Positions 16,178 to 18,284 of a DNA stretch of 27,934 nucleotides are shown here, one piece after another. Each line of letters opens with the position of its first letter. Position 1 is the first letter of the stretch. Position numbers and translations under genes: made by a program. The notes under the pieces were generated by a model that searched no databases, was not told the DNA's origin, and worked only from the letters and a program-made list of their open reading frames with translations. The stretch comes from a virus, in IMG/VR virus record IMGVR_UViG_3300028283_000026, positions 1 to 27,934 of that record, one strand, 5' to 3'.

Positions 16178-16206
16178 TTGACAGTTTTATAGCAATATGG
16201 CACTAT
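16178..16206 (+). promoter_or_regulatory. Sigma70-like promoter of the ribozyme cassette
   Basis: TTGACA (16178-16183) is followed after 17 bp by CACTAT (16201-16206); TATAG overlaps it two bases later. The -35 is perfect and the -10 weak. The word GTGTTGACA at 16175-16183 also forms the -35 region of the promoter at 25515-25546. A purine-rich leader of about 100 bases follows. The rest of 15999-16326 holds only the hairpin, the palindrome and this promoter with its leader; I see no gene there. Confidence 0.6.
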
Positions 16207-16326
16207 AGGCACATTGAAGAAGCGAACGGGAGGGCGGAAAGAAAAAAGATTAGAAAGGTACTTAACAGGTACGGCGCAATAATGAGTAAAATTAAAAGTG
16301 TTAACATAAACCCAAGGGGTATGAGA

Positions 16327-16518
16327 ATGAAGATATCAAAAGAATTAAAGAAAGACTTAAAAAAGATACAAAAATTCACAAATATGGTTATTGATAATGG
16401 TTTGTCTTTAACTGAAAAAGATGAGGCGGATGATGAAGTATCAGAAGCCGCCGGTGTGATTTTTGGCTTAATTGAACAACTGAACGACGAATTGTTCACT
16501 TTATTGGATGACGAGTAG
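16327..16518 (+). CDS. Cassette gene 1: small acidic helical protein
   Basis: Reads MKISKELKKDLKKIQKFTNM, then VIDNGLSLTEKDEADDEVSE, then an acidic end LFTLLDDE; 63 aa from ATG 16327. It is predicted to be mostly helix, with a basic start and an acidic C-terminal half. I chose ATG 16327 because AGGGG lies seven bases ahead, the same arrangement as in the next gene. In-frame ATGs at 16321 and 16282 are possible but less well placed. The upstream leader (16298-16326) resembles those following the ribozymes. Hammerhead 1 follows 29 bases after the stop. No family recognised. Confidence 0.68.
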   Translation: MKISKELKKDLKKIQKFTNMVIDNGLSLTEKDEADDEVSEAAGVIFGLIEQLNDELFTLLDDE

Positions 16519-16548
16519 AAGTGGGAGGAATCCAAAATAAAACAATAA
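16518..16548 (+). repeat. Noncoding copy of the 3' end of cassette gene 2
   Basis: GAAGTGGGAGGAATCC followed by AAAATAAAACAATAA (16518-16548) is identical to 16784-16814, where it encodes the last residues of gene 2 (KWEESKIKQ and stop). Here it lies just after the stop of gene 1 and runs into hammerhead 1. This is a fossil of a duplication that carried the ribozyme together with the end of the gene in front of it. Confidence 0.8.
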
Positions 16549-16607
16549 GCACACTGACGAGCCTGTGAGAATCAGGCGAAACCCCGAAAGGAATTGGGGT
16601 CTGTGTT
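16548..16607 (+). ncRNA. Hammerhead ribozyme 1 (type I)
   Basis: The catalytic core is complete: CTGACGA (16554-16560), GAAA (16578-16581) and GTC (16599-16601), with cleavage expected after C16601. Helix I is AGCACA/TGTGTT (16548-16553 with 16602-16607, one G-U pair). Helix II is GCCTG/CAGGC around loop TGAGAAT. Helix III begins CCCC/GGGG, extended by G-U and A-U pairs, around loop AAGGAA. The open end is helix I, so the type is I. It lies between genes 1 and 2. The downstream product would carry a 33-base leader to ATG 16635. Confidence 0.93.
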
Positions 16608-16634
16608 AAAACCAAAAACCCAAGGGGTATGAAA
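16602..16634 (+). promoter_or_regulatory. Leader with AGGGG RBS released by hammerhead 1
   Basis: The sequence between the cleavage site and the start of gene 2. It holds TGTGTTAAAACCAAAAACCC and then AAGGGGTATGAAA. The RBS AGGGG is 7 bases before ATG 16635. The same leader, with small changes, follows the other two ribozymes. It has no stable fold by eye (A and C rich), so the RBS should be open after cleavage. Confidence 0.75.
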
Positions 16635-16814
16635 ATGTACAGTCAAGCAGCAGTATTCACGAAACGTATTGAGCAGATGCGAGAGTTGAGAAAGAAGATG
16701 GACGAACTCTACACCTCATTTTCAAACATGATAGATGAGGAAATGGCGCGGGAAGTGACGGGGCAGTTGATGATTATCAAGGCGAAGTGGGAGGAATCCA
16801 AAATAAAACAATAA
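16635..16814 (+). CDS. Cassette gene 2: small coiled-coil-like protein
   Basis: Reads MYSQAAVFTKRIEQMRELRK, then KMDELYTSFSNMIDEEMARE, then VTGQLMIIKAKWEESKIKQ; 59 aa. It is largely one charged helix with heptad-like spacing (I-E-Q-M-R-E-L-R-K-K-M-D-E-L), so probably a coiled coil. I chose ATG 16635, 7 bases after AGGGG, over the in-frame ATG 16629, which sits too near the RBS. The stop TAA (16812-16814) shares its last base with helix I of hammerhead 2. The last ten codons, stop included, have an exact noncoding copy after gene 1. No family recognised. Confidence 0.7.
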   Translation: MYSQAAVFTKRIEQMRELRKKMDELYTSFSNMIDEEMAREVTGQLMIIKAKWEESKIKQ

Positions 16815-16875
16815 ACACACTGACGAGCCTGTGAGAATCAGGCGAAACACGAAAAAGGACTTTCGTGTCTGTGTT
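16814..16875 (+). ncRNA. Hammerhead ribozyme 2 (type I)
   Basis: Core CTGACGA (16820-16826), GAAA (16844-16847) and GTC (16867-16869); cleavage expected after C16869. Helix I AACACA/TGTGTT (16814-16819 with 16870-16875) is perfect. Helix II GCCTG/CAGGC around TGAGAAT is identical to copy 1. Helix III CACGAAA/TTTCGTG around AAGGAC is different from copy 1 but fully paired, showing it is held by structure. It lies between genes 2 and 3. Confidence 0.95.
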
Positions 16876-16907
16876 AAAACCAAAAACCAAAGGGGTATGA
16901 AAACGAG
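16870..16907 (+). promoter_or_regulatory. Leader with AGGGG RBS released by hammerhead 2
   Basis: TGTGTTAAAACCAAAAACC and then AAAGGGGTATGAAAACGAG lead to ATG 16908. AGGGG is now 12 bases from the start, longer than normal. Between them lies a tiny frame, ATG AAA ACG AGA TGA (16897-16911), whose stop overlaps the start of gene 3 as ATGA. Translation of gene 3 may therefore be coupled to it. Confidence 0.65.
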
Positions 16908-17090
16908 ATGACTGAGGATGAGTTATTAGCAGAATTAGGAATCGGCGATGACGAATTATTAGCAACGTTAGGAATTGAACCCGCCGACATCCAAAATGAC
17001 ATTACCGTGCTGCGTCATATATTCAAAACAATGGTTGAAGTGGCACGAAACGATATTGCCACTGATTGCCTGAAAAAGTGGGCGCGGTAA
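16908..17090 (+). CDS. Cassette gene 3: truncated paralogue of gene 5
   Basis: A 60-residue protein starting with a tandem motif (DELLAELGIGDDELLATLGIE) and continuing EPADIQNDITVLRH. The first 37 residues are identical to those of gene 5, and the DNA of both differs at very few bases. After LRH it reads IFKTMVEVA, matching FKTMFEVV of gene 5, so about 24 residues of the gene 5 sequence are missing between them. Then it diverges and ends DCLKKWAR. It may be functional as a short variant, or a decaying copy. The first part is acidic and helical. No family recognised. Confidence 0.65.
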   Translation: MTEDELLAELGIGDDELLATLGIEPADIQNDITVLRHIFKTMVEVARNDIATDCLKKWAR

Positions 17091-17126
17091 TAAGGACGCG
17101 CCTTTCTAACCACCGGAGAAGATCCA

Positions 17127-17396
17127 ATGTCGTTCGAAGATGCCCAATGTGCGTGGGATAACGCAAGCCACCCGGACTGGGATGTTCCGGATATTGAATA
17201 CCCACTCGCATTAGAAATAGTGGGTGAGGAATCGGCCTACGAGATTCTTGGATTAGTAGAAGAACTCGTATCGGGAAACAAAGACGCGCTAGAAGAATTA
17301 AAGCGCGTTTTCAAAGCAGCCTACGCTCTAGGATTGGAGCGTATTGAAAAGTACAGAAGGCAGGCAAGAGAGGATTCAATGGATGACGGTACGTAA
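17127..17396 (+). CDS. Cassette gene 4: small acidic protein
   Basis: An 89-residue protein, MSFEDAQCAWDNASHPDWDV then IEYPLALEIVGEESAYEILG, followed by a long charged helix (EELVSGNKDALEELKRVFKAAYALGLERIEKYRRQ) and an acidic tail. A GGAGAAG RBS is just before the start. It is the only downstream cassette gene preceded by neither a ribozyme nor the AGGGG leader, so it is probably translated from the same processed RNA as gene 3. Hammerhead 3 begins ten bases after its stop. The pattern is helical and soluble. No family recognised. Confidence 0.68.
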   Translation: MSFEDAQCAWDNASHPDWDVPDIEYPLALEIVGEESAYEILGLVEELVSGNKDALEELKRVFKAAYALGLERIEKYRRQAREDSMDDGT

Positions 17397-17405
17397 TTAT
17401 CCCAA

Positions 17406-17464
17406 GCCCACTGAAGAGCCTCTGAAATGAGGCGAAACACGAAAAGGGATTTTCGTGTCTGTGT
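17406..17464 (+). ncRNA. Hammerhead ribozyme 3 (type I)
   Basis: Core CTGAAGA (17411-17417; the fifth base is variable in the consensus), GAAA (17434-17437) and GTC (17457-17459); cleavage expected after C17459. Helix II is GCCTC/GAGGC around TGAAAT, a compensatory change from GCCTG/CAGGC in the other two. Helix III CACGAAAA/TTTTCGTG has a GGGA loop. Helix I, GCCCA/TGTGT (17406-17410 with 17460-17464), has one C-U mismatch and a G-U pair, so it is weaker. It lies between genes 4 and 5. Confidence 0.9.
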
Positions 17465-17492
17465 ATAAAAACCAAAGGGGTATGAAAACGAG
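17460..17492 (+). promoter_or_regulatory. Leader with AGGGG RBS released by hammerhead 3
   Basis: TGTGTATAAAAACCAAAGGGG and then TATGAAAACGAG lead to ATG 17493. It is five bases shorter than the second leader but otherwise nearly the same, including the tiny ATG AAA ACG AGA TGA frame (17482-17496) overlapping the gene start. Confidence 0.65.
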
Positions 17493-17939
17493 ATGACTGA
17501 GGATGAGTTATTAGCAGAATTAGGGATCGGCGATGACGAATTATTAGCAACGTTAGGAATTGAACCCGCCGACATCCAAAATGACATCACCGTGCTGCGA
17601 CATGTGCGTTCTAGTGCTAAAAGGCGTGCATCAGAGAAAATCGCAGTACAAGTCCCATGCGACGATTTTTACAGATTCAAAACAATGTTTGAAGTAGTAA
17701 CTTTTGAATTAAATGGAGGGATTCGCAAGTCATCGCGTTTCGGACGTAACACAAGCATTTCTAGAGGTGACTACTTTATCCTTAATGGATTGATTGTGTA
17801 TGTTGATAGGGTGGGGGATGATGCACGATTGAGAGTTATTTATAGTAATGAAACAGAAAGCAATTTGCTGGTTCATTCACTACAAAGGGCGCTTTATAAA
17901 GATAAGTCAGGTCGTCGAATTACAAAAAGGGGTAATTAA
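17493..17939 (+). CDS. Cassette gene 5: acidic N-terminus plus domain seen beside GIY-YIG nucleases
   Basis: A 148-residue protein. Residues 1-37 repeat DELLAxLGI and are shared with gene 3. A basic linker follows (VRSSAKRRASEKIAV). Residues about 65-145 (ISRGDYFILNGLIVYVDRVGD, RLRVIYSNETESNLLVHSLQ, RALYKDKSGRRI) look like the small domain that precedes the nuclease domain in bacterial GIY-YIG family proteins (pattern RLRVIF-NGTESN-LL-SL-RAL-KD-GRRI, from memory). Here the protein stops right after GRRITKRGN, so no nuclease domain remains. It may be a stand-alone binding domain or the remnant of a truncated nuclease gene. The stop is directly followed by the start of gene 6. Confidence 0.68.
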   Translation: MTEDELLAELGIGDDELLATLGIEPADIQNDITVLRHVRSSAKRRASEKIAVQVPCDDFYRFKTMFEVVTFELNGGIRKSSRFGRNTSISRGDYFILNGLIVYVDRVGDDARLRVIYSNETESNLLVHSLQRALYKDKSGRRITKRGN

Positions 17940-18254
17940 ATGGCTGGGTACAAAATTAGATCATTGGGTGGAGGTGAACCTCACCCTGATTATCGCGGCT
18001 GGAGGGGGTTTTTAGACACCACCGATATAAGAGACACCCATGATGGTGTAATTTTTTACGGTAAAAATAATTGCAATTATATCCTATTCCCAACGGGGGA
18101 AGTGTTAGAAAATTATGGTTATCATGGAGCAAACAGAATGCGAGATATCCGAGAGTTTGGGTGGAAAACCGTATTAGACTGCGCCAGAACAAGGCATAAA
18201 GAAAGATTGGAATTGTGCGAATTATGCGGATATAAAAAGGTTTTAGGCAAATAA
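17940..18254 (+). CDS. Cassette gene 6: hypothetical protein with CxxC
   Basis: A 104-residue protein. It starts at ATG 17940 immediately after the stop of gene 5, with AGGGG seven bases ahead inside the end of gene 5, the same RBS type as genes 1 and 2. Features are SLGGGEPHPDYRGWRGF, then DTHDGVIFYGKNNCNYILFP, then a C-terminal CELCGYKKV. The CxxC pair alone does not make a complete zinc site; Cys and His residues upstream (NNCNY, CARTRH) may complete it. No GIY-YIG motif is visible. Eight bases after the stop lies the terminator. I do not recognise a family. Confidence 0.68.
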   Translation: MAGYKIRSLGGGEPHPDYRGWRGFLDTTDIRDTHDGVIFYGKNNCNYILFPTGEVLENYGYHGANRMRDIREFGWKTVLDCARTRHKERLELCELCGYKKVLGK

Positions 18255-18262
18255 AAAACTAG

Positions 18263-18284
18263 CCCGCTTCACGCGGGTTTTTTT
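18263..18284 (+). terminator. Intrinsic terminator of the plus-strand cassette (bidirectional)
   Basis: CCCGC (18263-18267) and GCGGG (18273-18277) are followed by seven T (18278-18284): a textbook intrinsic terminator. On the minus strand the same stem is followed by CTAG and then six T, so it may also end the head morphogenesis transcript. The stop codon of that gene (18271-18269) is inside the loop. Confidence 0.9.

Follow-up and report, generated by a model that had tools for sequence, protein, structure and literature searches.

The locus examined here raises the question of whether three motifs lying between the small genes of a single phage operon are self-cleaving hammerhead ribozymes (HHR1-HHR3), and what they might do for the messages in which they lie. 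The window, meaning the whole stretch of DNA analysed, is a virus record of 27.9 kb (27,934 nucleotides), a myovirus contig whose minus strand encodes the tail sheath, portal, terminase, protease and other head genes. Among named phages, the portals nearest to that of the window belong to Pseudomonas and Aeromonas phages (~55% identity), and a DNA similarity search of the window against known phages and plasmids returned no match. On the opposite strand lies the operon with the three motifs, whose features are, in order:

16178-16206, plus strand: candidate operon promoter (TTGACA, 17 nt, CACTAT, the -10 being poor), sub-threshold in the promoter scan and weakly evidenced.
16282-18254, plus strand: hammerhead-bearing operon of six small genes, with a terminator at its end.
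16282-16518, plus strand: gene 0, a small ORF of 78 aa with a TAG stop; the start is likely 16327, after the leader AAGGGGTATGAGAATG.
16549-16606, plus strand: HHR1, type I; helix I 16549-16553/16602-16606, core 16554-16560, helix II 16561-16565/16573-16577, GAAA 16578-16581, helix III to U16600, C17 at 16601, predicted cut after 16601.
16622-16637, plus strand: leader after HHR1, Shine-Dalgarno-like AAGGGG and start codons, 21 nt past cut 1.
16629-16814, plus strand: gene 1, 61 aa; TAA stop at 16812-16814, 5 nt ahead of C3 of HHR2.
16815-16874, plus strand: HHR2, type I; core 16820-16826, helix II 16827-16831/16839-16843, GAAA 16844-16847, C17 at 16869, predicted cut after 16869.
16890-16911, plus strand: leader AAGGGGTATGAAAACG before gene 2, containing a 4-codon mini-ORF (MKTR, 16897-16911 with its stop).
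16908-17090, plus strand: gene 2, 60 aa; its N-terminal part recurs in gene 4.
17127-17396, plus strand: gene 3, 89 aa; stop 14 nt ahead of C3 of HHR3.
17406-17464, plus strand: HHR3, type I; core 17411-17417, helix II 17418-17422/17429-17433, GAAA 17434-17437, C17 at 17459, cut after 17459 if active.
17475-17496, plus strand: leader AAGGGGTATGAAAACG before gene 4, containing the MKTR mini-ORF (17482-17496 with its stop).
17493-17939, plus strand: gene 4, 148 aa; paralogous to gene 2 at the N-terminus, no relatives found by translated search.
17940-18254, plus strand: gene 5, 104 aa; no relatives found by translated search.
18261-18279, plus strand: intrinsic terminator ending the operon (7-bp stem, T run).

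A T7-like promoter candidate, CACTATAGG at 16201, is present as a single copy within the window and was set aside. Comparison of the operon proteins with Pfam and PHROGs gave weak sub-threshold matches only and no convincing family, a translated search of viral contigs and phages found no relatives of genes 3-5, and a search of viral contigs for the leader or the exact hammerhead sequence also returned none. Within the operon the leader AAGGGGTATGARAAYG, with its AAGGGG, precedes genes 0, 1, 2 and 4, and three of these four copies come after a hammerhead. The four-codon mini-ORF is conserved, its stop overlapping the start codon of both gene 2 and gene 4. Since codons 1-37 of these two genes are duplicated with synonymous differences only, these hammerhead-linked frames look translated.

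All three motifs contain CUGANGA, a 5-bp helix II, GAAA, helix III and, preceding the cleavage site, U-C; hairpin loops cap helices II and III. The bare core pattern (CTGANGA..GAAA) is common, with 3 found against 1.5 expected and at least three in 22 of 100 shuffles, so that significance comes from the helices; this frequency is what could be said for chance hairpins mimicking hammerheads. Against such mimicry, a descriptor comprising the intact core, a helix II of at least 5 bp and a helix III of at least 6 bp had no match in any of 400 windows simulated with matching dinucleotide content. Further, we searched the window with an independent covariance model, derived from 12 hammerheads of IMG/VR contigs that were picked by loop II pattern with the window excluded. 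Exactly three matches were returned, at HHR1 (63.5 bits, E 2.3e-18), HHR2 (63.7 bits, E 1.9e-18) and HHR3 (45.7 bits, E 1.7e-12). The simulation and the model E-values refute chance hairpins for copies 1 and 2, and leave that explanation a negligible probability for the locus.

Alignment by the covariance model comprised 117 hammerheads, 114 of them distinct among the matches listed; across these distinct sequences helix pairs were standard in 98.4% of cells, and 569 double-change cells were counted against 147 in shuffles. RNA folding recovered the complete hammerhead as the minimum-energy structure in copies 1 and 2 (z ~-3.1), with helix I pairing on both sides of the core over 6 bp. At gathering thresholds no Rfam family matched the window, and below threshold only RAGATH-1 and type III matches appeared. 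The gathering thresholds of Rfam release 15 also miss all type I hammerheads on ten other hammerhead-rich viral contigs, which identifies the miss as a threshold limit. The covariance search proposed in the earlier note was thus negative with Rfam at gathering thresholds and positive with our own model from other viruses (E at most 1.7e-12). The best Rfam match of copies 1 and 2, RAGATH-1-hammerhead (RF03152), has the same core and an open helix I, but they score 20.7-29.8 bits against its threshold of 56.3, and loop II and the 5' extension differ. Viroid-type Hammerhead_3 (RF00008) resembles copy 3 in its core and loop II UGAAAU (24.9 bits, partial match), whereas it is of type III, with an open helix III, and is used in rolling-circle replication. 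We conclude that the three motifs are genuine type I hammerhead ribozymes. Their positions on the plus strand, as given in the earlier note, are borne out by sequence, descriptor and independent covariance model, and the predicted cleavage sites after C16601, C16869 and C17459 had been read correctly from the core.

The three copies are not equally intact, contrary to what had been supposed. Pairing helix I strands, claimed for all of them, are present in copies 1 and 2; in HHR3 the core is intact, helix II is present and helix III is longer, but a C17408-U17462 mismatch falls in the middle of its helix I, for which folding predicts a pairing probability near 0. HHR3 is probably weak and would cut poorly. 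Its origin may lie in duplication. HHR1 and HHR2 have their 5' half and upstream codons in common, while HHR2 and HHR3 agree in their 3' half and in the leader and start of the gene (2 or 4) that follow (98% across 137 nt). The 5' strand of HHR3 ends in CCCA, and such strands usually pair with UGGG in relatives; to judge by sequence, HHR3 looks like a recombinant of two hammerheads that lost one helix I pair. Beyond its TAG, the gene 0 frame reads KWEESKIKQ and then TAA (16546-16548), at the edge position before HHR1. This extension (window 16516-16548) is identical to the end of gene 1, indicating that the duplicated hammerhead block includes the last codons of the upstream gene.

These shared halves, leaders and gene starts, together with the likeness of HHR3 to a hammerhead cross that left a helix I mismatch, are also what would be seen if the hammerhead merely rode along with leader-gene cassettes spread by recombination and were now functionless. 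We regard such a by-product as unlikely, given that the cores are intact in all three copies and the helices perfect in copies 1 and 2. Moreover, helix III is almost wholly different between copies 1 and 2 yet paired in both, which argues that selection keeps the pairing.

What, then, might the ribozymes do? Each of the three occupies an intergenic position on the coding strand and is followed by an AAGGGG leader. This supports the earlier description of three type I hammerheads in a single operon, each ahead of a gene; the operon is co-directional, and a Shine-Dalgarno leader stands between each hammerhead and its gene. The best explanation, which we consider likely, remains the one first offered, that they cut the polycistronic RNA of the operon between genes, probably poorly at copy 3. 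From the activity demonstrated for equivalent arrays (PMC3088659), we infer cleavage in the cell and a benefit through message stability. Full cutting would, from the coordinates, separate gene 0, gene 1 (268 nt), genes 2-3 (590 nt) and genes 4-5 (~0.8 kb). After each cut the upstream mRNA would end in the folded ribozyme with a terminal 2',3'-cyclic phosphate, and the downstream mRNA would begin with a new 5'-OH ~30 nt ahead of its start codon. What is generally known of RNA decay makes it plausible that the ribozyme body shields the upstream 3' end and that RNA with a 5'-OH decays slowly; the likely benefit would be that each piece has a stability and dosage of its own. Weighing against processing, helix I of HHR1 has a predicted probability of 0.3-0.5 within longer transcripts, from a folding program that ignores the tertiary contact.

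Exposure of the Shine-Dalgarno sequence was predicted to be nearly unchanged by cutting at copies 1 and 2, which rules out a simple translation switch there. At gene 4, predicted exposure rises from ~0.3 to 0.68 on HHR3 cutting, a weak lead for a switch. Also observed was an AUCCC ahead of HHR3 (17398-17402) that could pair with GGGGU of the gene 4 Shine-Dalgarno (17477-17481).

A different fate of the cut pieces would be circular mRNAs, if pieces between hammerheads, with matching helix I strands (UGUGU, ACACA) and 5'-OH and cyclic-phosphate ends, religated, as happens in viroids and retrozymes, either unaided or through RtcB. The post-cut strand UGUGUUAAAACC is common to HHR1 and HHR2, so that the gene 1 piece can rebuild helix I of HHR2 from its own 5' end, and retrozymes, which reportedly propagate through hammerhead-made circles, provide a precedent. 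The common strands, however, follow from recent duplication, and Perreault et al. detected neither circular nor spliced products when they looked for them with prophage arrays (PMC3088659), making circularization highly improbable in our estimation.

Processing of the operon RNA into separate messages is not a new proposal, and the suggestion that this arrangement was undescribed proved wrong. Perreault et al. 2011 (PMC3088659) found that "on many occasions" several hammerheads flank prophage genes, with clusters in Agrobacterium tumefaciens (a triple array around ardA), Clostridium scindens and Azorhizobium caulinodans, and proposed that long phage transcripts are processed into operon- or gene-length mRNAs. 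Three tandem arrangements cleaved in vitro, and one triple array cleaved when transcribed in E. coli (PMC3088659); as the arrangement had been described and tested, and the same function proposed, the claim of novelty fails. As in those prophage clusters, several same-strand hammerheads here flank single genes or short blocks of a phage-type operon. The prophage clusters differ in genes and host group, in comprising types I, II or III where all are type I here, and in that the present operon has a repeated leader-gene cassette and one apparently broken copy. HHphage of haloviruses HF1 and HF2 likewise lies shortly ahead of a phage gene, with a mapped transcript 5' end at most 3 nt from the cut (PMC3088659), but is a single-copy core variant from an archaeal virus.

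Tandem arrays also recur well beyond this operon. Counting model matches among the loci listed, with the window excluded, at least two hammerheads occur in 25 of 63 hammerhead-bearing viral loci; in all 25 they lie on one strand, with a median spacing of 579 nt. Among the same loci listed, the next start codon is mostly 20-40 nt past the cut. The array did not extend to the phages closest by portal: the descriptor found zero hammerheads in portal relatives (1 Mb in all), and the covariance model returned nothing exceeding noise on 23 portal-relative loci. As all scanned portal relatives are without it, the array is not essential to this phage type, and the operon is accessory.

Several individual loci are of note. 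On a 92.7-kb viral contig, eight type I hammerheads occupy less than 6 kb of one strand (L054:1331-6900), one of them preceding a DUF932 gene. At L005, L018, L031, L116 and L122 a hammerhead is followed, 60-80 nt downstream, by a recurrent ~350-aa gene that is AAA ATPase-like in L122. Genome contigs bearing this subtype of hammerhead (L206-L302) cluster in Legionella and Thaumarchaeota (Nitrosotalea and relatives). In the thaumarchaeal contigs L207, L214, L227, L267, L289 and L299 the hammerhead lies 15-30 nt ahead of an ORF of 218-226 aa, mostly with a strong Shine-Dalgarno.

The position of the upstream stop codon bears on how cleavage might be controlled. For this analysis the viral and bacterial/archaeal collections were pooled, made non-redundant and restricted to upstream ORFs of at least 60 aa (n=103 listed); the viral sample was picked by loop II pattern, and counts refer to the matches listed. 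Among these, the stop of the upstream ORF falls within -9 to +17 of C3 in 76 of 103 cases, at -4/-5 in 42 and at the core UGA in 14. In the bacterial and archaeal genome collection, the corresponding figures are 11/31 at -4/-5 and 7/31 at the core UGA. Among the matches listed, and with frame classes that are defined partly by stop position itself, making the null imperfect, a stop triplet just outside helix I was present in 26/41 cases where it would be in frame versus 9/62 otherwise (p 5e-7), and the edge triplet of the other frame in 16/23 versus 6/80 (p 5e-9). Being retained mainly when in frame, the edge triplet appears to be retained as a codon. An A at -6 is common in every frame class and seems to belong to the ribozyme. 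In cases whose reading frame misses the edge stop, loop II UGUAA was seen to replace UGARA and to supply TAA (L054:1386, L054:4503, L102:8239).

Together these counts suggest, without proving, that upstream translation and cleavage interfere. Processing of the operon RNA could accordingly be refined by supposing that a terminating upstream ribosome covers helix I and the core, restricting cleavage to the times or places in which the upstream gene goes untranslated, and that the ribozyme acts as a readout of translation. The frequency of stops near C3 and the preference for in-frame edge triplets favour this coupling, and HHR2 matches the geometry exactly through the TAA of gene 1. However, tight packing of phage genes would explain the same geometry, and the stops upstream of HHR1 and HHR3 lie off the edge, at -35 and -14; for HHR1 a TAA occupies the edge position in the gene 0 frame, but the earlier TAG terminates gene 0. 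We therefore advance the coupling only tentatively, as a possibility less probable than not. With the same reserve, phage type I hammerheads may be a standard intercistronic element of stop codon, ribozyme, ~30-nt leader and start codon, in which the stop lies at the ribozyme edge and both the timing of cleavage and the choice of messages to be cut are governed by ribosomes completing the upstream gene. Among the papers searched, a set that covers a minority of subscription journals, no earlier report of an overlap between stop codon and ribozyme was found, and stop codons go unmentioned in the text of Perreault et al. 2011 (PMC3088659). Clustered phage hammerheads have thus been known since 2011, while the same papers yielded no description of the common stop-ribozyme-start layout.

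A review (PMC6155905) still treats as open the question of what hammerheads do in phages and bacteria. This compact operon, which combines two intact copies with one whose helix I is naturally mismatched and in which a stop codon abuts the edge of a ribozyme, provides a convenient test system, and the function becomes easier to test where the upstream stop is, as usual, built into the edge of the ribozyme. The wider pattern of a stop at the ribozyme, a leader after the cut and placement on one strand confines the possible functions to the processing of mRNA in connection with translation or decay.
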